From: an uncultured Brachyspira sp.
GTDB lineage: Bacteria > Spirochaetota > Brachyspiria > Brachyspirales > Brachyspiraceae
DNA length: 64,000 nt
Reading direction: 5' to 3'
Assembly (NCBI RefSeq): GCF_944390845.1
Contig: NZ_CALXRM010000001.1
Coordinates: forward strand, 62,001-126,000
In this document: piece by piece, positions 1,904 through 14,327 of the stretch
How positions within the stretch are numbered: position 1 is the stretch's first letter
How the letters are laid out: each line of letters begins with the position of its first letter
Position numbers and translations under genes: made by a program
Notes under the pieces: generated by a model
Database searches by the model: none
Told to the model about the DNA's origin: nothing
What the model saw: only the letters and a program-made list of their open reading frames with translations

Positions 1904-4900
1904 TTAAATATACTTCCAAGTGTAGCCTTTTTTCATCTCTAGAATTTCATCAACAGTACCTTTAGCAATGATTTCTCCTCCATTAGTACCACCTTCTAAT
2001 CCTAAATCAATTATATAGTCAGCAGCTTTTATAACATCAGGATTATGCTCTATTATTATAACGCTATGTCCTTTTTCTACTAATTTGTTTAAAGCTATAA
2101 GAAGTTTATTAACATCATCAAAATGAAGCCCTGTAGTAGGCTCATCTAAAATATATACTATATGCTCATCGCCTTGTTTTTTAGCTAACTCTGTAGCAAG
2201 TTTCAAACGCTGTAATTCACCGCCAGAGAAAGTATCAAGCCTTTGAGAAAGTTTTATATAACCGAGTCCAACCTCGCTCATTATAGAAAGTGTTTTTACG
2301 ATTGATTTGTCGAAATCAAAAAACTCTATTGCCTCATCAACTGTTAATTCTAATACTTCGGCTATATTTAAAGATTTGAATCTTACGGATAAAGTTTCGT
2401 CATTGTATCTTTTACCTCCGCAAGCCTCGCAAACTATTTCCATGTCGGATAAGAAGTGCATTGCTATTTTTCTTATTCCTTTACCTTCGCATATATTGCA
2501 CCTTCCTTCTTTGCCGTTATATGAGAATCTTCCTGGTGCGAATGCCTTTGCCTTTGCTGTAGGAGTTTTAGCAAATATATTTCTTATTTTATCGAACACT
2601 TTACTATAGCTTACTAATGTACTTCTAATAGAACCAACTATTGAAATTTGATCAACTAATATAGTATCTGAAACAATGCTAGGTATTTCAACACTTTCAA
2701 ATTTTGAATATTGATTTAGTCTGCGTTTTTTTAGAGCAGGGTAGAGTGTGTCTATTATCAATGATGACTTACCGCTTCCAGATACTCCAGTAACAACTAC
2801 TATCTTTTTTAATGGTATATCAACATCAATATTTTTTAAATTGTTTGTTGAAACATTTTTTAATTTTATGCATTCAGTTTCCTCATTTCTTACAGCAGTT
2901 TTTTCAAATACTTTTTTTCTCTCGCTTAAATAATTTCCTGTAAGTGAATTATCATCTTTTAATATATCATCGTATTTACCTTGGAAAACTACTTCTCCTC
3001 CAAAAGCACCAGCATAAGGTCCCATATCAACAATATTATCAGCAGCCTTCATAGTATCTCTGTCATGCTCTACTATTACAAGAGTATTTTTTAAATCTCT
3101 CAATTCTTTTAATGTATCAAGCAAATGATTTGTATCTCTTGGGTGAAGTCCTACAGTAGGTTCATCTAATACATAAAGTACGCCTGTAAGTTTAGAGCCT
3201 AATTGACTAGCAAGTCTTATTCTCTGTGCCTCACCGCCTGAAAGTGTTGCATATTTTCTGCTTAAGAATAAATATCCAAGTCCAACTTTATCTAAGAAAC
3301 TTAATCTTGTTCTTATTTCTTTTATAGCTTCCTTTGATATAGTATTTTCTCTCTCGCTTAAAACATTTGGAAGTTCATCAAAGAAATGAATATTTTCTTC
3401 AACTGTCATAGCACATACTTGGCTGATATTTTTATTTTGTATAGTATAAGATCTCATTATTTCATTTAATCTTTCTCCATGACAAGAACTGCATTCCTCA
3501 TCAATAAAGAATTTACCAAGGGATTGATCCTTCCACTCTGAATAATCTTCACTTGTAACATCATTATTGGAATGCCATGCAGTTATTACATTACCTATAG
3601 AATAATCGCCTCCAAAAAATACTGTGTCTATAACTTTTTTATCTAATTCATTGAAAGGAGTTTCATATAAATCTTTTTTTGTTATCCCGCTTCTTCTTAA
3701 AAATCTCATTAAAGAATCAGTATAATGCTTTCCCGGGGTAGAAAACATATTATGAATAGCTATATCCAATGCACCGTCAAATAAAGGTTTTGTACTGTCT
3801 TTTATTGCTAAATCTATACTGAATGTAGGCTTACTTCCAAGTCCTTTACATTCTTCACAATATCCCCAATGTGAATTAAATGAAAAATGTCTTGGTGTAA
3901 CTTCAAAATCAAATAAAATTCCATGAAGCAAGCAAGCAGGGAATTTCGTATGGAAACTTTCTTTTACTATTATTCCATGAGAGGCTTTTATATGTGCTAC
4001 TCCGTTTGATAAATCCATTGCTCTATCAATAGCATCTGCAATTCTAGCTCTTTTATCCTTTCCAACAACAATCCTATCGATTACTATACCTACAGAATAT
4101 ATTTCTTCTTTAGATAATTCTTTAATATCTTCTTCTGTAATATCATCTATAACATAATCATTATTATTGATCTGCATTCTTACATATCCAGCTTCTCTGG
4201 TTTTTTCTATAATCTTTTTAATATCTTTTGCATCATTATCATCAAAAGTAAATCTATGATTAAATGAACTATGATACAAAGGTGATATTATAACAAGTTT
4301 ATGAAGATCCATAGTATCAACAATTTCAGTTGCAAGTATAGAAGGAGTTTCAGCTTTTAAAGTATATTTATCAGAACAATGCGGACAATGAGGCTTGGAT
4401 AATCTTGCAAAAATTAATCTGAAATAGTCATAAATTTCTGTAACAGTTGCCACAGTAGAACGAGGATTCCTACTTACATTTTTCTGATCAATTGCAATTG
4501 CAGGAGCTAATCCTTCTATTTTTTCAACGTTAGCATCTTCAAATCTTCCTAAAAATCTTCTGGCATAAGTAGAAAGCGATTCAACAAATCTTCTTTGACC
4601 TTCTTTAAATATAGTATCAAATGCAAGAGAAGTTTTTCCGCTTCCTGATACTCCTGTTATAACATTGATTTGATTTTTAGGAAGTGTCAAGCTTATATTT
4701 TTAAGATTATGTTTATTGGCACCTTTTATTATTAATGAAGTATTTTCTTCTTTTTTTGTTTCTTCTGTCTTGATATTTTCTTTTTTCTTTTTTGAAGGTT
4801 TTAATATTTCTTTAAGTTCTTTTGCTGTGAGAGATTCTTTTACATTAATTATATCTTCCGGCTTACCCTCAGCAACGACTCTGCCTCCTTTATCTCCGCT

Positions 4901-7720
4901 TAAAGGCCCCATATCTATAATATGATCGGCACATTTAATAACGTCCAAATTATGCTCTACAACTAAAACAGTATTACCTTTATCAACAAGTCCGTCCAAT
5001 GCTTTTAATAATTTCTTTATATCCTCAAAATGAAGTCCTGTAGTAGGCTCATCTAATATATAGAGAGTATTTCCAGTAGATATTTTATGAAGCTCGCTTG
5101 CAAGTTTTATTCTTTGAGCTTCTCCTCCTGAAAGTGTAGTTGAAGGCTGCCCTAATTTTATATATCCAAGTCCTATATCTTCCATTATTTTTAATATTCT
5201 TGTAATAGAAGTTATACCGTCAAAAAATGTAATCGCCTCTGAAACACTCATTTCAAGAACATCATAAATAGTTTTGTCTTTATATTTAACATCTAAAGTT
5301 TCTGCATTGAATCTCTTTCCTCCGCATTCTTCACATGGCACTAATACATTAGAAAGAAACTGCATTTCTAATTCTATAACTCCAGCACCTTCGCAAGTAG
5401 GACATCTTCCGGTTTTTACATTGAATGAAAATCTTCCTTTATCGTATCCTCTCATTTTAGCAAGTTTAGTAGCTGCAAATAAATCCCTTATAGGCGATAA
5501 AACTTTTGTATAAGTTGCTGGGTTGCTTCTTGGTGTTCTTCCTATAGGTGACTGATCAACTTCTATAACTTTGTCAATATTTTCAAGTCCTTCTATTCTT
5601 TCATGGCTTCCAGGATTTAAACTTTTACCATAAAAATGATTATGCAATGCACGCATTAAAATATTTTCAACTAAAGTAGATTTACCGCTTCCTGAAAGTC
5701 CTGTAACTACAATAAATAAACCCAAAGGAAATTGAACATCTATATTCTTAAGATTAAATTGATTAGCTCCAATTACTTTTAAAAACTTTCCATTTCCTTC
5801 ACGTCTTTGTTTTGGAATTTCTATGTCATCATCGCCGCGTAAATATTTAGCAGTATATGATCTATCAGATTTTATAAACTCTTCATAATCACCAATACCT
5901 ACAACCTCACCGCCATTAACACCAGCATTAGGGCCTATATCGATTAAATAATCTGATTCCTCCATAGTTTCTTTATCATGCTCTACAACTATGACAGTAT
6001 TATTTTTATCTCTTAATGTTTTTAATGATTCAATTAATTTTTTATTATCTGATTGATGCAAACCTATTGAAGGCTCGTCAAGTACATATAATACGCCTTC
6101 AAGTCCGCTTCCTATTTGTGAAGCTAATCTTATTCTTTGAGATTCTCCGCCTGAAAGAGTAGGGGAGGAACGCTCTATTGTTAAATAAGTTAATCCCACC
6201 TTTACCAAAAATGTTAATCTATAAATAATTTCTTTTACTATAGGAGCACCGATTACTTCTTCATTTGGTTTTAATTTTAATTTAGTGAAATAATCATATA
6301 AATCTTCTATAGTCATTGAAGAAAAATCAGCTATAGTTTTTCCATTAAATTTTACTGACAAAGCGTCATCATTAATTCTTTTACCTTTACATTTAGGGCA
6401 TTCAACTTCGTCCATAAAATTGGCATAATAACTATTTTTATAAGTTTCATAATCATATTTTAATCTGTCTAAAATTCCGGGTACTCTTTCTTCAACAAGT
6501 TTGCTATGATACCAAAATCTTTTTCTCCATTTTACTTCTTTATCAGTACCATATAATAAATATTTCTTTTCAGTTTTAGTTAAATCTTTCCAAGGCTTTT
6601 TTAAATCTATTTTATAAGTCTTAGCAATAACTTCAAGTTCATCAGTACCATATTCCATATCAAAACCGATATGATCATCTACAAAACAAGATAAAGCCCC
6701 TTCATAAATATTTAAATTTTCATCTTTTACAATATGTTTTTCAGTAAATACATGTTCGACCCCAAGTCCTCCGCAAACAGTGCATGCTCCCATAGGGTTA
6801 TTAAATGAAAATAAATTAGGCTCAATATCAGCAATAGAGTGTCCGCAATTTGCACAAGATCTTTCAGTTGTATACAATTTATAATATTTATCTATTTCAA
6901 ACTGCTTACTCATTTTGATTTTTTTCTTTTTTGTTTTTGTATCTTCTTCAGCATTTTCTGGAGTTTGTGTTTCTAATACTTCTTCGCTTTTTTCATGTTC
7001 TTCATAGAATGCTACTAAGCCTTTTGTTATTCTTATGGCTCTTTCAATATCATCAGTGATTCTTGATAAGTATTTATCTTCAACTTTTATTCTATCTATA
7101 ACTATTTCTAAAGTGTGCTTCTCATATCTTTTAAGTTCTGGTATTTCATCTTCATCAAATTTATAAACTATATTATCAATTCTTATTCTAGGATAACCTG
7201 CAAGTTTAACTTCTTCAATTTCTTTTCTATACTCTCCCTTTCTATCTCTTACAATAGGGGCTAGAACTAAAATTCTTTTTTCTGCGAACTCTCTTAAAAC
7301 ACTTTGTGCGATTTGGTCTTCACTCTGCTTAGAAATTTTATGTCCGCATTTAGAGCAATAAGGAACTCCAAGTCTTGCAAATAATAATCTAAAAAAGTCA
7401 TAAATTTCTGTAACAGTACCTACAGTAGAACGAGGATTTTTATTTACGCTTTTTTGGTCTATAGAAATAGTAGGGGATAGTCCTTCTATATGTTCAACAT
7501 CAGCCTTAGCCATAACTCCTAAAAACTGTCTGGCATAAGCTGACAATGATTCTAAATATCTTCTCTGTCCCTCTTTAAAAATAGTATCAAATGCAAGCGA
7601 ACTTTTTCCGCTTCCTGATACTCCTGTTAAAGTAGTTAGTGTTTTATGAGGTATTGAAAGTGATACATTTTTAAGGTTATGCTCTTTAGCACCTCTTATT
7701 TCTATAGAATTATTAGCCAT
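1904..7720 (-). CDS. uvrA: Tandem-fused (double-length) UvrA excinuclease ATPase
   Basis: UvrA recognises bulky DNA lesions and loads UvrB in nucleotide excision repair. Ordinary UvrA is about 940 residues and works as a dimer. This protein is 1,938 residues and holds two UvrA units in one chain. Unit 1 (1 to about 965) has Walker A GVSGSGKS at 33-40, CSKCGHK near 120, a zinc pair CANC/CTVC near 290-315, LSGGESQR near 523, a second Walker A near 676, CPTC/CEEC near 773 and LSGGEAQR near 863. A lysine/glutamate-rich linker (about 965-993) leads to unit 2, which repeats the order. Unit 2 has diverged: one zinc pair reads CLLH, the last Q-loop region has lost the VDQSPIGRTPRS consensus, and the last signature is FSGGE. 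Chlamydial UvrA is a known tandem form. AGAAGG precedes the ATG. No other gene shares the transcript visibly. Confidence 0.95.
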   Translation of the reverse strand: MANNSIEIRGAKEHNLKNVSLSIPHKTLTTLTGVSGSGKSSLAFDTIFKEGQRRYLESLSAYARQFLGVMAKADVEHIEGLSPTISIDQKSVNKNPRSTVGTVTEIYDFFRLLFARLGVPYCSKCGHKISKQSEDQIAQSVLREFAEKRILVLAPIVRDRKGEYRKEIEEVKLAGYPRIRIDNIVYKFDEDEIPELKRYEKHTLEIVIDRIKVEDKYLSRITDDIERAIRITKGLVAFYEEHEKSEEVLETQTPENAEEDTKTKKKKIKMSKQFEIDKYYKLYTTERSCANCGHSIADIEPNLFSFNNPMGACTVCGGLGVEHVFTEKHIVKDENLNIYEGALSCFVDDHIGFDMEYGTDELEVIAKTYKIDLKKPWKDLTKTEKKYLLYGTDKEVKWRKRFWYHSKLVEERVPGILDRLKYDYETYKNSYYANFMDEVECPKCKGKRINDDALSVKFNGKTIADFSSMTIEDLYDYFTKLKLKPNEEVIGAPIVKEIIYRLTFLVKVGLTYLTIERSSPTLSGGESQRIRLASQIGSGLEGVLYVLDEPSIGLHQSDNKKLIESLKTLRDKNNTVIVVEHDKETMEESDYLIDIGPNAGVNGGEVVGIGDYEEFIKSDRSYTAKYLRGDDDIEIPKQRREGNGKFLKVIGANQFNLKNIDVQFPLGLFIVVTGLSGSGKSTLVENILMRALHNHFYGKSLNPGSHERIEGLENIDKVIEVDQSPIGRTPRSNPATYTKVLSPIRDLFAATKLAKMRGYDKGRFSFNVKTGRCPTCEGAGVIELEMQFLSNVLVPCEECGGKRFNAETLDVKYKDKTIYDVLEMSVSEAITFFDGITSITRILKIMEDIGLGYIKLGQPSTTLSGGEAQRIKLASELHKISTGNTLYILDEPTTGLHFEDIKKLLKALDGLVDKGNTVLVVEHNLDVIKCADHIIDMGPLSGDKGGRVVAEGKPEDIINVKESLTAKELKEILKPSKKKKENIKTEETKKEENTSLIIKGANKHNLKNISLTLPKNQINVITGVSGSGKTSLAFDTIFKEGQRRFVESLSTYARRFLGRFEDANVEKIEGLAPAIAIDQKNVSRNPRSTVATVTEIYDYFRLIFARLSKPHCPHCSDKYTLKAETPSILATEIVDTMDLHKLVIISPLYHSSFNHRFTFDDNDAKDIKKIIEKTREAGYVRMQINNNDYVIDDITEEDIKELSKEEIYSVGIVIDRIVVGKDKRARIADAIDRAMDLSNGVAHIKASHGIIVKESFHTKFPACLLHGILFDFEVTPRHFSFNSHWGYCEECKGLGSKPTFSIDLAIKDSTKPLFDGALDIAIHNMFSTPGKHYTDSLMRFLRRSGITKKDLYETPFNELDKKVIDTVFFGGDYSIGNVITAWHSNNDVTSEDYSEWKDQSLGKFFIDEECSSCHGERLNEIMRSYTIQNKNISQVCAMTVEENIHFFDELPNVLSERENTISKEAIKEIRTRLSFLDKVGLGYLFLSRKYATLSGGEAQRIRLASQLGSKLTGVLYVLDEPTVGLHPRDTNHLLDTLKELRDLKNTLVIVEHDRDTMKAADNIVDMGPYAGAFGGEVVFQGKYDDILKDDNSLTGNYLSERKKVFEKTAVRNEETECIKLKNVSTNNLKNIDVDIPLKKIVVVTGVSGSGKSSLIIDTLYPALKKRRLNQYSKFESVEIPSIVSDTILVDQISIVGSIRSTLVSYSKVFDKIRNIFAKTPTAKAKAFAPGRFSYNGKEGRCNICEGKGIRKIAMHFLSDMEIVCEACGGKRYNDETLSVRFKSLNIAEVLELTVDEAIEFFDFDKSIVKTLSIMSEVGLGYIKLSQRLDTFSGGELQRLKLATELAKKQGDEHIVYILDEPTTGLHFDDVNKLLIALNKLVEKGHSVIIIEHNPDVIKAADYIIDLGLEGGTNGGEIIAKGTVDEILEMKKGYTWKYI

Positions 7721-8117: not shown

Positions 8118-8948
8118 TTAAAAATTAATATTGATTTTTAAAGATTTAGAATATTTTATTTCTCTGCTTGCATTAGAACTAAATTTTAAATTCATAGAAG
8201 AATTTAAAACATTAATTAAAAACTTAGGTATATGGGCACCGCTTACTTTTACTGCAATATCTACATATCTTTCTAAACTAGAAACTACATGGTCTAATTT
8301 AAATTCTTCTATTTTTATATTACCAGCTATCTTACCATGAAGCATATATTCATCAATTTTGGATTTTATTTGCATTAAAGCATATATATTAATATTTTCA
8401 TCTTCTATCATTTTTTTAAAATCTTCTTTAGGTAGAGAATGTATTTCTGTTATATCTTCCTCATACCTAGATTCTTTTTTTTCGGTATGCTCTAATTTAG
8501 ATATTATACTAGTATTTGATCCAGCACCAATTTTTAATTTCCCTATTATAAAACTTGATTTAGATGACATTTTTTTTTCCAATTCTTCTATATTTATTTT
8601 TTCTTCCTGAATAATAATTTCTATATACTTTGCTCCAATATTTTTGGATAAATGAGATAATAAATATTTAAAATCATGTTCGTAACATTCATAATAAGTA
8701 TCTATTGGATAATAAACATTATTGAATAATTTACTTTCAACTAAATATAAGGATTTATGATTTGAACTAGCTAAGTTTATTGGTTCCTTATATAATTCTT
8801 TTACATAATATTTATTGAGTTTTTCTGCATCTTCATCTGGAGTATATATATCTAAATCTCCAAAAATTTTTTTACGTTCTGAATATTCATTTTCTATATC
8901 AAATTTAGTTTGACTATCAGCAACTATTAATATTTCTGAATCTTTCAT
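8118..8948 (-). CDS. Unknown soluble protein, third gene of the GTPase-like module
   Basis: A 276-residue protein I do not recognise. There is no signal peptide or membrane segment. The N-terminal part is acidic and aromatic-rich. The middle carries a helical KMSSKSSFIIGKLKIGAGSN segment. After a charged linker (about 165-195) the rest is Ile/Lys/Ser-rich and ends in alternating hydrophobic residues, as in beta strands. It follows the tail-anchored membrane protein by 9 bases, with AAGGAT in the gap as its ribosome site, so the two are surely co-transcribed. Base composition is typical of the window. Being last in a GTPase-led operon suggests an effector or partner, but nothing in the sequence shows an activity. 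Confidence 0.65.
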   Translation of the reverse strand: MKDSEILIVADSQTKFDIENEYSERKKIFGDLDIYTPDEDAEKLNKYYVKELYKEPINLASSNHKSLYLVESKLFNNVYYPIDTYYECYEHDFKYLLSHLSKNIGAKYIEIIIQEEKINIEELEKKMSSKSSFIIGKLKIGAGSNTSIISKLEHTEKKESRYEEDITEIHSLPKEDFKKMIEDENINIYALMQIKSKIDEYMLHGKIAGNIKIEEFKLDHVVSSLERYVDIAVKVSGAHIPKFLINVLNSSMNLKFSSNASREIKYSKSLKININF

Positions 8949-8957
8949 AAAATATCC

Positions 8958-9377
8958 TTATTTATTAATAAAATAAAATATTATAAATGCAATAACTATT
9001 GCAGCAAATATTGATGTTATAGTTTTTACATTTGTAGTTGTTTTATATTTAGAATGAAGTTCTTTCCACTTTTCATAATCTAATCCCATTAACTTCAATG
9101 TTTTTTGTATTTCATCATTTGTAACCTCATTATTGTAAATTATCAAAGCCGTTCTTCTTCTATTTGAAATATCTTTTTTTTCATGCTTCATATAGCATAA
9201 TGTATAACCATTTTTTGCTTTTATGACACCTTCATCATCATTAATATTAAGTCTTGGAAGCATTTCATATAATTTATTTATTGCTTCATTTTCTTCTTTA
9301 CCTTTAACTAATTTACCATTAATTACTGTGGTATGTTCAAAACCTTCTTCAGCACCCTGAATTGTAGCAATTATCAT
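8958..9377 (-). CDS. Small C-terminally membrane-anchored protein, second gene of the GTPase-like module
   Basis: 139 residues. The first about 115 form a soluble domain (an MIIATIQGAEEGFEHTTVING beta-rich start, then helices). It ends in one hydrophobic segment of about 20 residues (SIFAAIVIAFIIFYFI) followed by NK. With no signal peptide this predicts a tail-anchored protein with the soluble domain in the cytoplasm. An AAGGAG site (around 9385-9390) lies in the 13-base gap after the GTPase-like gene and fixes the ATG at 9377. I know no family for the soluble domain. In context it could recruit the GTPase-like protein or the downstream protein to the inner membrane. Confidence 0.7.
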   Translation of the reverse strand: MIIATIQGAEEGFEHTTVINGKLVKGKEENEAINKLYEMLPRLNINDDEGVIKAKNGYTLCYMKHEKKDISNRRRTALIIYNNEVTNDEIQKTLKLMGLDYEKWKELHSKYKTTTNVKTITSIFAAIVIAFIIFYFINK

Positions 9378-9390
9378 ATTATTTCTCCTT

Positions 9391-10068
9391 TTAATCTAAA
9401 ATAAAATTTATAATTTCATCTTGAGGACTTTCAGATAATTCAAATATCTTACATCTAACTCCTAAATCCGATATTTTTTTCTCTACTTCTATTTTATTCT
9501 GTAACTCATTACCATGAGTTCCTATAGCAAAACATTTGATATTTTCATTTTCTAGTGAAAAATTAACCATATTAATTATTCCACGTTCTATATTTTTTCT
9601 TACCATAATTTTTTTTATATTATCAAATAAATAAAATATATTATCTGTAGTATTATAATATCTACAGTCAAAAATATAACATCTCATAGAATGAGGTATC
9701 TTTCTAGCTGTACCAATAGTTTGTTTTTTTCTAGAATTATTACTTCCAGGTGTATTTATGAAATAATATGGTTTCTTTTTATCATTACCTATTTTTTTTG
9801 ATTTTATAATTTCATAAATAAAGGTTTCATCTGTACCTAATTTCCGTCTATCTTTTATACGAAAAACTCTTCTAAAAAAAGTTTTTACTTTGCCTTCTTT
9901 TTTTGGTAAATCTTCAAACTTTAAACCTAATAATATTTTTATAAATGTATCTTTTCCAGCCCTACTTTCACCAAAAACTAAAACCGTCCTATCTTTAAAT
10001 AATCCATGCTTAAGACGTTCGCATATTTCACCAATCTTTGTCTTAAAATCTTGTAATTTATTAAACAT
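9391..10068 (-). CDS. P-loop GTPase-like protein, first gene of an unrecognised three-gene module
   Basis: About 225 residues. After an N-terminal helix comes a P-loop, GESRAGKD (33-40, then T41), resembling TRAFAC-type GTPases but with Asp where Ser/Thr is usual before the Thr. The G3 motif reads INTPG instead of DTPG. A likely G4 position reads GTHGNE instead of T/NKxD. The fold is therefore GTPase-like while all three motifs deviate, so nucleotide specificity and hydrolysis are uncertain. A basic stretch (KVKTFFRRVFRIKDRRK) lies in the switch I region. I choose ATG 10066-10068 because AAAGGTG sits just upstream; a TTG at 10116 would extend it 16 residues but lies at the predicted transcription start. 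It heads a tightly spaced operon (gaps 13 and 9 bases). Confidence 0.7.
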   Translation of the reverse strand: MFNKLQDFKTKIGEICERLKHGLFKDRTVLVFGESRAGKDTFIKILLGLKFEDLPKKEGKVKTFFRRVFRIKDRRKLGTDETFIYEIIKSKKIGNDKKKPYYFINTPGSNNSRKKQTIGTARKIPHSMRCYIFDCRYYNTTDNIFYLFDNIKKIMVRKNIERGIINMVNFSLENENIKCFAIGTHGNELQNKIEVEKKISDLGVRCKIFELSESPQDEIINFILD

Positions 10069-10107
10069 AAATACACCTTTATTATTTAAATTAACAATAC
10101 TCAATAT

Positions 10108-10136
10108 ATTATACAAAAAAAAAAAAAAAAAATCAA
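10108..10136 (-). promoter_or_regulatory. Promoter with homopolymeric 17-nt spacer, candidate phase-variable switch
   Basis: On the minus strand: TTGATT (-35, 10136-10131), a spacer of T16 plus G (10130-10114), and TATAAT (-10, 10113-10108). The plus strand shows A18 at 10115-10132. The spacer is exactly 17 nt, the sigma-70 optimum, so gain or loss of bases in the tract would weaken the promoter. The start site would fall near 10101, leaving a leader of about 33 nt with AAAGGTG before ATG 10068. Confidence 0.65.
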
Positions 10137-10194
10137 GTATTTTAACAAAGATAATATGTTTTTATACATTAAAAAATATTTTTTTATAATTTTT

Positions 10195-10545
10195 CTTACA
10201 TTCCCCGCCCTTTAAAATTTACTGCTTAAATTTGAACATAAAATCTCTTATTCTTTGAAGCTATAAAAGAAAAAGCATGCCCGCCCAAGCGATTTTTAAA
10301 TTTAGAATTTTTACTAGAAAATCAAATTAAAAACTTTATTCACCGCACGCAGAATGAAGCTAAAAAACAAAGCTTATTTAGAATTCAAAATTCATAAAAT
10401 ATAATATCCTATTTACCGTGCGTTAAGGAGATTATAAATTTAATAAAAACTAGGGTGGGGTTGCTTTTTCTAATTCAGCAATAAGAATAATTAAATTAAA
10501 AATACAGAATAAAATAGTAGACTTAACAGGGTGGGCATGTAAATA
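10195..10545. repeat. Second type of GC-blocked intergenic repeat-like sequence
   Basis: This AT-rich spacer is punctuated by short GC blocks: CCCCGCCC at 10203-10210, GCATGCCCGCCC at 10275-10286, CCGCACGC near 10342, CCGTGCG near 10415, GGGTGGGGTTGC near 10454 and GGGTGGGCATG at 10529-10539. The last is close to the reverse complement of the block at 10277-10286, giving an imperfect inverted pair about 250 bases apart. It differs from the repeat family at 7839-8108. I see no gene here. Confidence 0.4.
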
Positions 10546-10560
10546 AATTCTAAATATAAA

Positions 10561-10600
10561 TAAAAAAGGCTTTATAATATATTGCTATACTATAAAGCCA
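10561..10600 (-). terminator. Intrinsic terminator of the enoate-reductase-like gene
   Basis: On the minus strand GGCTTTATA (10599-10591) pairs with TATAAAGCC (10576-10568) and is followed by TTTTTTA. It lies 31 bases past the stop codon at 10631. Confidence 0.75.
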
Positions 10601-10630
10601 TGGAAAATTATGAATCTATATGTTTAACTA

Positions 10631-12577
10631 TTATATGTCTAAAGCAGCATGATAGCCCCAATAAACAGCATTTGTTATTGTTGCTACTTTTGCAGCATCT
10701 CCTATTACTCTTACAAATGGAGCAGTATCTCTTAATTTTTCAACAGTATCAGTGCAAGATCTTTGTCCTAATGCACATATAACTGTAGTTCCTTCAACTA
10801 ATACTTCTTTATTGTCTTTATCAACACATAATATTCCGTCTTTTCTTACTTCTATACCTTTATATCCAGTATGAACAGTAACATATTTATCAACTTCTTT
10901 TAAAAGTAAAGGTCTATGTCTTACATTAGCATCAGGAGCAAGTTCATCTCTCATTTCTACAAGATGTACTTTTTTACCTTCCATTCCTAAATGTATAGCA
11001 CATTCACAGCCTGCCAATCCTCCACCAAATACAACTACATTATCAGTTACTTTATCTTTTTCTTTGTAGTAGTTATTTACTATTACAACATTATCACCAT
11101 CTAAACCTTTTATAGGAGGAACTAAAGGAGTTGAACCTACTGCAATTATTAATGCATAAGGATTTTCTTTTTCCACTAATTCTTTTGTTACTTCTGTATT
11201 TGTACGAATTTCAACGCCAGCTTTTTTAGCAAGCAATGCATAAGTATTAGATAAATCATACATTTCTTTTTTGAAAGGTATTGCCTGCTCACTTTTTAAT
11301 ATACCTCCCACTTCTGATTCTTTCTCACATAATATAACTTTATGTCCTCTTCTAGCAGCAGTATAAGCAGCATATAAACCTCCAGGGCCTGCACCTGCAA
11401 CTAAAACTTTTTTACTTTCTCTTGCAGGCATAACTTCAATTCTGTCAAGTTCTCTTCCTATTAAAGGATTAACTGTACATCTTCTAGTAGCAGTAGCAGC
11501 ACGTTCAGCCATACAAGTAAAGCATCTTAAACAATGCACTATTTCTTCATCTCTATTTTCCATTACCTTTCTAGGCAATTGATGATCAGCAAGTAAAGCA
11601 CGTGCCATATAAACAATATCTGCCTTTCCTGAGGCAATAATATCGTCCATTTGTTCTGGGCTATTTAAAGCCCCTATAGTTGATACTGGTACAGAAACAT
11701 GTTTTTTTATAGCCTCTGCTAAATATACATTACATCCATGCTCTTTAAATATAGAAGGGTGAGTGTCTCCGAAACCTCTTTGATAAGTACCAGCAGAAAC
11801 ATGAAGCAAATCAACATAAGGAGATATCTGTTTAGCTATTTCTATTCCTTCATCTAAATCATAACCTCCATCAAATAATTCAGAACCGCTGAATCTAAAC
11901 TCTATTGGAAATCTTTCTCCAACAGCTTTACGTACAGATGTTAATACCTCTATTGCTAAACGGCATCTATTCTCTAAACTTCCGCCGTATTCATCTTTTC
12001 TTTTATTAAAATAAGGAGAGAAAAATTGATTTAACAACCAACCATGACCTCCATGTATTAAAAGCATTTCAAAACCAGCTCTTTTAGCAAGTGCTGCAAC
12101 ATTTCCGTAAGCATCAACAATATCTTTTATCATTTCTTTTGTTAATGATTTTACTTCTACACCATCAGGACGTACTGTATCAGAAGGCCCCCATTGAGCC
12201 ATGCTTTGTTTTTTACTTTTATCTGTCATATATGTACCTGCATACATACCAGAATGTGATAATTCCAAGCTAGCTATTGAACCATGTCTTCTTATAGCAT
12301 CTGCAGTATAAGTAGCTGCGGCAAGAGAGTTTAATATTTTTGTATCCAAATGATAAGCATGAGAACCGTCTGTCTCAGGATGCACCATACATTCACTTAC
12401 TGTAACAGCACCTGCACCGCCTCTTGCTCTTAATTCATAGAATGCAGTTGATTTTGGTCCTATACAGCCATCATTAGTTATATCAGTTCCGCCCATTGGA
12501 GCTGAAAACATTCTATTTTGAAATGTAACGCCTGCTATTGTTATAGGCTTACATAGATTAGGATATTTATGTTTCAT
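10631..12577 (-). CDS. Old-Yellow-Enzyme family FMN/Fe-S/FAD oxidoreductase (2,4-dienoyl-CoA/enoate reductase type)
   Basis: 648 residues in the FadH/enoate reductase/BaiCD-BaiH architecture. These enzymes reduce activated C=C bonds, passing electrons from NAD(P)H through FAD and a 4Fe-4S cluster to FMN. The N-terminal TIM barrel (about 1-335) has the family signature HGGHGWLLNQFFSPYFN followed by R-x-D-E-Y-G-G-S. A cysteine cluster CLRCFTC, then C eleven residues later (about 346-365), binds the cluster; the spacing is x2-x2-x11 rather than the x2-x3-x11 of E. coli FadH. The FAD site GAGPGG is near 392 and a second dinucleotide site GGGLAG near 515. The substrate is unknown. GGAG precedes the ATG. 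It lies 471 bases downstream of the transporter pseudogene on the same strand, with a repeat element between. Confidence 0.9.
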   Translation of the reverse strand: MKHKYPNLCKPITIAGVTFQNRMFSAPMGGTDITNDGCIGPKSTAFYELRARGGAGAVTVSECMVHPETDGSHAYHLDTKILNSLAAATYTADAIRRHGSIASLELSHSGMYAGTYMTDKSKKQSMAQWGPSDTVRPDGVEVKSLTKEMIKDIVDAYGNVAALAKRAGFEMLLIHGGHGWLLNQFFSPYFNKRKDEYGGSLENRCRLAIEVLTSVRKAVGERFPIEFRFSGSELFDGGYDLDEGIEIAKQISPYVDLLHVSAGTYQRGFGDTHPSIFKEHGCNVYLAEAIKKHVSVPVSTIGALNSPEQMDDIIASGKADIVYMARALLADHQLPRKVMENRDEEIVHCLRCFTCMAERAATATRRCTVNPLIGRELDRIEVMPARESKKVLVAGAGPGGLYAAYTAARRGHKVILCEKESEVGGILKSEQAIPFKKEMYDLSNTYALLAKKAGVEIRTNTEVTKELVEKENPYALIIAVGSTPLVPPIKGLDGDNVVIVNNYYKEKDKVTDNVVVFGGGLAGCECAIHLGMEGKKVHLVEMRDELAPDANVRHRPLLLKEVDKYVTVHTGYKGIEVRKDGILCVDKDNKEVLVEGTTVICALGQRSCTDTVEKLRDTAPFVRVIGDAAKVATITNAVYWGYHAALDI

Positions 12578-13048: not shown

Positions 13049-14296
13049 TTAAGAATTAGCTTTCTTTTCTCTTTTGTCTAAAATAGAATAAATTATTGTT
13101 AATACTATTCCAAAAATATTTAAAGCACATGCCACTAAAAATGCATTCTGATAACTTCCGTATTGACGGTACATACTTCCCATAACAGTAGGGCCGAAAT
13201 ATCCAGCTATAGCAACACCAATAAACATTATTCCATAATTAACACTGTTATTTAATGTTCCAAATTTTGAAGCTGTAAATCCTGGAAAAACTCCCATAAA
13301 AGAACCGAAACAAAGTCCTACTATAGATATGCCAATATAGAAGATAACATTAGTTCCTTCTCCTGATTTATAAAGACATAATAATCCTATTGCACCAAGA
13401 ACACATGAAAAAGCTAATGTTAATATTCTTCCTATTTTATCTGAAGAATAACCTGCTACAATTCTTCCAAATACATTAAATAATGCTAGAACTGAAACTG
13501 CGGTACTTGCAGCAATAGCACTCATACCAACTAAATTTCTTGCAACTGCTGAAGCTTGAGAAGTAATCATCATTCCTGTAAAAGCTCCGCAAGTAAAAAG
13601 AAGTATCATTACATAGAAATGCTGGAGTTTTAAGCATTCCTTTCCAATCTTTATTAATAGTGACCGAATTTGAATTCTTCTTTTCTGGAGGAGTCCAACC
13701 ATCTGGTATAAAGTTTGGAGGACATTTTTCTATAGTGAAAGAACAAAATGCAAGTATAATACAAAAAACTACACCAACAATTTTAAATGCTGTAGGGGCA
13801 TCAAATTTATTAACAATCATTGTAACTATAGGAGGAAGTGCTACAGAACCAAAACCATATACTGCAGTTATAATACCTCCTACCAATCCGCTTTTATCTG
13901 GAAAAAATTTTATACAGCTGCTTATTGCTGTACCATAAGCCATGCCTAATCCAAGTCCTCCTATTAAAGCATAAGATACAATTAAAAATCCAACACTTGT
14001 AGCAAATCCTGAAAGAAGCATTCCAAGTCCCCACATCATACCGCCTACAAATAAAACTTTTTTAGGTCCGAATTTATCATTAACCCAGCCTCCGCTTATC
14101 ATTGTTATAGGGCCAACACTATTAGCTATTGTATATACTATAGCTAAATCTGCTGAAGTTAATGTTTTTCCTAATATTCCAGACAAATATTCAGCCATAG
14201 GTGCAGCAAATACACTCCAAGTATAAATTGAACCTAAACATAAATTGGCTAAACATACTACAAAAAGTATAAACCATCTCTTTTTGTATAATTCAT
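13049..14296 (-). pseudogene. Frameshifted OFA-family (oxalate/formate antiporter-like) MFS transporter
   Basis: Read across two frames this is a 12-helix major facilitator of the OFA type, with WFILF ... NLCLGSIYTWSVF at the start and GGWVNDKFGPKK in the 2-3 loop. The first frame runs correctly to MLKTPAF, then fails; YVMILLFTCGAF continues in the next frame. One extra base at about 13616 explains this. There is a second problem at the start: GGGAG (14303-14307) is ideally spaced for ATG 14294-14296, but that ATG is one base out of frame through the A5 run at 14281-14285; restoring A6 gives MNYTKKRWFILF, the usual family start. Otherwise only a GTG at 14309 without a ribosome site is in frame. 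Likely a decaying or switchable importer for the reductase's substrate. Confidence 0.75.
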
Positions 14297-14327
14297 AATA
14301 TACTCCCACGATTTATTATTATATGTA

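Follow-up and report, generated by a model that had tools for sequence, protein, structure and literature searches.

An uninterrupted run of 18 T residues fills most of the space between a −35-like and a −10-like hexamer in front of a three-gene GTPase module of an uncultured Brachyspira species. This run is likely, though some way from certain, to be a hypermutable promoter spacer and one case of a poly-T habit found throughout the genus. On this reading, the module is probably phase-variable and ON when the spacing is 17 bases. The locus is found at positions 10108–10136, on the minus strand, of the 64,000-nucleotide stretch of DNA that was analyzed (the window).

The −35-like element TTGATT is located at 10131–10136 and the −10-like element TATAAT, which matches the consensus at six of six positions, at 10108–10113. 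The preliminary description had these two hexamers separated by exactly 17 bases, 16 of them T, and direct reading and measurement bear this out, since the spacer (10114–10130) consists of one G and 16 T. The T18 homopolymer, the candidate slippage tract, spans 10115–10132 (A18 on the plus strand) and has two T in common with the end of TTGATT. It lies between two hexamers that are assigned as consensus matches only, and its length is taken from the assembly and may be wrong by at least one base. The ATG of the GTPase gene at 10068 appears 40 bases past TATAAT and is preceded at a distance of 5 bases by AAGGTG (10074–10079), a plausible ribosome-binding site on the minus strand. The list of open reading frames starts the gene at a TTG at 10116, between the tract and the −10 element; this codon adjoins the −10 element and is an unlikely start.

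The upstream co-directional gene (10631–12577, minus strand) is followed directly by a terminator-like hairpin at 10568–10599 on the same strand, and the GTPase module therefore probably needs its own promoter. A dispersed Brachyspira intergenic repeat (10174–10560, no strand assigned) with several matches per genome is positioned 5′ of the T18 promoter; it is matched in all 26 Brachyspira genomes, at most 32 times in each. A role for T18 as part of a terminator was rejected because no hairpin precedes the run, and the sole terminator-like site within 9900–10640 is the one at 10599–10568. An RNA element at the promoter was likewise rejected, with no Rfam match within 9900–10640. Farther along the window, a transporter-like protein at 13049–14309 reads by eye as two overlapping open reading frames in different frames (13049–13702 and 13476–14309), which suggests a frameshift, and a 1938-residue open reading frame at 1904–7720 seems by eye to join two UvrA-like halves in a single protein.

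The hexamer pair alone is unremarkable and does not exceed chance in this AT-rich region. The genome contains TTGATT-N15–19-TATAAT 103 times and its reversed form 44 times. A consensus scan of the local sequence gave 9 promoter-like sites versus 5.6 ± 2.4 in shuffled sequences. The T18 run itself is more than chance provides. The A/T runs of 4, 5, 6, 7, 8, and 9 bases in the window number 905, 425, 175, 52, 15, and 1, respectively, and the next length present is 18. Five overlapping matches to an A 14-mer are found in the window versus 0.15 expected, and none of 100 shuffles reaches five. Only two runs of at least 12 T are present in the 3.43-Mb genome, both strands counted, versus approximately 24 expected from base composition alone; for runs of at least 18 T, the same composition predicts approximately 0.06 genome-wide. 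The pattern TTGR-T9-N1–12-TATAAT has a single occurrence in the genome, which is the T18 locus. The second long run is a T12 at G000:C7:14178–14189, the final T of which begins a TATAAT, and it is located 36 bases 5′ of the ATG of a 169-residue lipoprotein-like gene.

Three genes follow the T18 promoter on the minus strand. Gene 1 (9391–10068) encodes a 225-residue predicted small GTPase with the P-loop GESRAGKD, gene 2 (8958–9377) a 139-residue protein with a C-terminal hydrophobic segment, and gene 3 (8118–8948) a 276-residue protein of unknown function. Relative to GxxxxGK[ST], the P-loop keeps both G residues and the K, and D replaces S/T; GKD is invariant in all seven GTPase sequences aligned. 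The predicted fold of gene 1 resembles those of small GTPases. Its AlphaFold model is of modest confidence (pLDDT 65, pTM 0.67), the best Foldseek matches to this model are Rab GTPases (E 1.3e-6, with modest TM values of 0.42–0.58 for the first two), and Pfam gave sub-threshold matches only, to Dynamin_N for the GTPase and to Ras for one relative.

The GTPase is present in 7 of the 26 Brachyspira genomes, including that of the window, and the six relatives are 30–34% identical over the alignment. The gene order GTPase, protein of approximately 140 residues with a C-terminal hydrophobic segment, and protein of approximately 270 residues is found in G018, G008, and G001. The module also occurs in G006, where the open reading frame listed as the third gene is shorter, in G004, where the order differs, and in G021, for which only the first and third genes are listed. 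Counterparts of gene 2 are located 3′ of the GTPase at four loci (L050, L051, L052, and L054) and adjoining at L053; none of at least 80 residues is listed at L049. Gene 3 is 23–32% identical to its five counterparts in the module loci. A known defence module was rejected, as PADLOC matched neither the GTPase nor the third protein; for the small protein of gene 2 there is one weak match to part of the PDC-M20B profile (E 3.2e-4). A plasmid origin was rejected in the absence of a plasmid DNA match, and a phage origin because a search with the GTPase alignment found no relative in viral contigs; a single-sequence scan of genome contigs likewise found none.

The homologous module promoters from G021, G018, and G008 were aligned, and none contains a long T run; no run longer than 10 appears at the other module loci retrieved. 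These three promoters rule out a tract that is conserved together with the module. At the nearest locus, in G021, the upstream intergenic DNA is 87% identical up to approximately the −35 element, the GTPase is 30% identical, and the promoter spacer is of mixed sequence. The G018 promoter reads TTGACT-TTTATGTTTTTTTCC-TATAAT with a T-rich spacer, and the G018 and G008 promoters together conform to TTGACT-TTTATGTTTTTTT(C/T)C-TATAAT. The lack of a long run in these relatives indicates that T18 is probably recent in the lineage of the window, and a T-rich spacer may have been its origin. Homopolymers grow by chance, and the same distribution would suit a neutral accident, namely a recent expansion within one lineage that happened to fall in a promoter and has little effect on expression or is a passing mutation. 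This explanation is improbable: both of the two long runs in the window genome adjoin a −10 element, and it does not anticipate the association with promoter flanks found across the genus.

That association was measured in a census of one genome per species. Runs of at least T12 were located at 69 places in 21 of the 26 genomes, and all 69 sequences were retrieved. Of these runs, 41 are held by the 21 better assemblies (completeness at least 90, contamination at most 5) and 28 by the five poorer ones. A run was scored for a TTG no more than 3 bases 5′ and for a match to at least five of six positions of TATAAT no more than 5 bases 3′. In the better assemblies, the TTG flank is present at 21 of 41 runs, the TATAAT-like flank at 20, and both at 15, leaving 26 runs without the pair. 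Both flanks are found at 5 of 153 control runs of T7–9 from the same loci (Fisher 5e-8) and, when each gene family is counted once, at 9 of 31 long runs (4e-5); the rule was framed after inspection of the 69 contexts, so the Fisher values are descriptive, and the species belong to one genus and are not independent. When the long runs are read as A on the opposite strand, both flanks appear at 3 of 41. For the T6, T7, and T8 runs of the window, the corresponding counts are 5 of 175, 4 of 52, and 1 of 15, respectively. The association is stronger with length, both flanks being present at 11 of 16 runs of at least T15 and at 4 of 25 runs of T12–14 in the better assemblies, which also argues against neutral growth of the tract at the GTPase promoter.

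In the five poorer assemblies, 3 of the 28 runs have both flanks. Many runs in these assemblies are inside genes, with G020 and G021 showing many, and assembly error is probable there. Short-read assemblies misjudge homopolymers, and the T18 run could in principle be an artefact of this kind, with a shorter true length. Such an error is very improbable. The genome of the window is listed as 99.99% complete and contains only two such runs, which indicates that it is not noisy in homopolymers, and a like architecture (T18 before a Vsp gene) is present in the single-contig assembly G004.

Twelve of the 16 runs of at least T15 in the better assemblies precede surface proteins, as a raw count. Five of the genes are Vsp genes (G002, G004, G016, G018, and G022) and seven encode lipoproteins (two each in G001 and G022, one each in G008, G013, and G017). 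The twelve labels were assigned mostly from N-termini read by eye; two of the proteins (L064 and L069) are truncated to 33 residues by the end of the contig or locus. Pfam was run on three of the twelve (L077, L060, and L087, the last without a match) and on four other proteins. The Vsp of G002 was identified as Serpulina_VSP (PF05540, E 2.7e-101), the lipoprotein of G008 as a BspA-type leucine-rich repeat protein, and the G009 copy of the lipoprotein shared by G009 and G022 as an NMT1-like binding protein. The other four runs precede the GTPase of the window, a 53-residue open reading frame in G019, a contig end (G022:C46, where the sequence is like that of a substrate-binding lipoprotein promoter), and a region in which no open reading frame was found. 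A conserved open reading frame of 53–55 residues that ends in KDIKILSVR has promoter runs at L070 1502–1523 (G019, T22) and at L081 (G008, T13). The best Vsp match in the genome of the window has no poly-T promoter. It had been proposed beforehand that phase variation would suit a costly or surface-linked system. The T18 module comprises a predicted small GTPase and two further proteins, is not a demonstrated surface system, and has no obvious surface exposure.

The length of the run differs between species at two promoters with conserved flanks. The vsp promoter contains T20, T18, T19, T19, T19, T18, and T7 in seven genomes, the T7 promoter being that of G025, which is 78% identical to the query. 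In these vsp-type promoters (L119 1420–1720 and the relatives L154–L160), the T18–20 of six genomes and the T7 of the seventh are placed between TTG and TACAAT and are followed by a leader of approximately 120 bases; the inverted repeat GCCGGACAA...TTGTCCGG is present in several. For the lipoprotein promoter at G000:C7, identity across the aligned DNA is 97% to the counterpart in G022, 98% to that in G017, and 93% to that in G021. The runs of G000, G022, G017, and G021 are T12, T17, T10, and T10, which gives spacers of 16, 21, 15, and 17 bases, respectively, from a TTGTTT taken as the −35 element.

A constitutive strong promoter would offer another account of the T18 spacer, as a rigid, curved A-tract or as an extreme of the T-rich spacers common in low-GC bacteria, with a length kept near 17 and no switching. 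The homologous spacers of G018 and G008 are already T-rich, and the vsp tracts cluster at 18–20 in six of seven genomes, as this account would have it. It is nevertheless unlikely, as the window is depleted in runs longer than 8 T, curvature could be had without instability from a spacer of mixed, T-rich sequence, and the lengths at other promoters of this class extend from 7 to 23, beyond the tolerance for spacing.

A switch driven by slippage is more in keeping with these data. The run is located between the two halves of a promoter, and the longest runs of the relatives are mostly in promoters of surface proteins and vary in length, so T18 is probably such a switch. The replication polymerase would slip on T18 and gain or lose T. 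The run fills nearly all of the gap between the −35 and −10 elements, and each slip would therefore change the spacing by one base. A spacing of 17 bases is the optimum for sigma-70. T18 gives this spacing, and the sequenced state is accordingly predicted to be ON. With T17 or T19, the three-gene GTPase module would be expected to be transcribed less, and a greater change in length would be expected to shut it off; switching would be reversible and beneficial. The same arrangement would operate across Brachyspira through long T runs in the promoter spacers of lipoproteins and of the variable surface proteins (Vsp). The rarity of long T runs, their position in promoter-like spacers, their location mostly before surface proteins, and the variation in length from species to species at two promoters make the mechanism plausible. 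The proposal in the preliminary description that the tract is an ON/OFF switch is partly supported, by the geometry and by the logic of slippage, and it is weakened by the lack of a long run in the three homologous promoters.

A second class of homopolymer was found in the genus. The 26 genomes (77 Mb) contain 69 runs of at least 9 G, versus approximately 2 expected from composition; these runs are distributed over 20 of the 26, and none is in the genome of the window. The sequences of 19 stretches, which hold 21 of the 69 runs, were inspected. Runs of G9–G13 are found inside methyltransferase-like genes in G018:C2, G004:C1, and G006:C3 (L190, L191, L196, and L198), and the two poly-G genes tested match Methyltransf_23 (E 1.1e-22). 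The reading frame stays open for 288 residues in the copy with G13 and for 297 in that with G12, and neighboring copies with G10 stop 7–20 bases past the run. This pattern resembles that typical of translational phase variation, and the occurrence of in-frame and cut-off copies suggests that Brachyspira uses homopolymers as switches. A broader scheme is possible, at slightly less than even odds, in which poly-T spacer switches control a membrane-linked GTPase module as well as Vsp proteins and lipoproteins across the genus and are joined by a poly-G layer inside methyltransferase genes.

A promoter-spacer switch is a known kind of mechanism. Retention of a variable tract by orthologous promoters and surface exposure of the controlled gene are common in this class but are not obligatory. 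In opc and porA of Neisseria meningitidis, a homopolymer fills the spacer between −35 and −10, and its length sets the spacing and the strength of the promoter. The opc and porA tracts are poly-C or poly-G and drive outer-membrane proteins. T18 occupies the same position in the spacer, and the Brachyspira tract differs in being poly-T. The T run of the vsp promoter (PF05540 family) is placed as in the T18 locus, with a different gene behind it. The vlp genes of Mycoplasma hyorhinis are turned ON and OFF by insertions and deletions in a poly-A tract of their promoters (Citti and Wise 1995, summarized in PMC10502178). The parallel extends to an A/T homopolymer in the promoters of surface lipoprotein genes of an AT-rich host; switching is reported in M. 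hyorhinis, whereas it is inferred in Brachyspira, a spirochaete, in which the genes behind T18 form a GTPase module.

The available portion of PMC5415613 describes Vsp proteins as Brachyspira antigens whose detection depends on the strain, brings up phase variation through a comparison with Mycoplasma, and mentions no promoter tract. According to PMC2897892, differences in vsp expression may help the bacteria to evade the immune response. PMC8845278, in its accessible part, reports many long homopolymers in Brachyspira genomes, whereas few T runs of at least 12 were found in the 26 genomes of the census. No promoter tract is mentioned in the accessible part of PMC2650404, and Brachyspira is absent from that of a review of phase variation (PMC11868660). 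No report of a homopolymer promoter, poly-T or other, in Brachyspira was recognized in the literature searched, which consisted mostly of papers open without subscription, and within that literature a switch of this kind appears to be unreported for the genus.

The poly-T promoter spacer provides a concrete candidate mechanism for the differences in Vsp from strain to strain. If the broader genus-wide scheme is correct, slippage would be the mechanism of strain-dependent Vsp expression in the species pathogenic to pigs, and the same stochastic control would extend to a GTPase system that is apparently intracellular. If the module is switched, its function is probably costly enough for populations to hedge.
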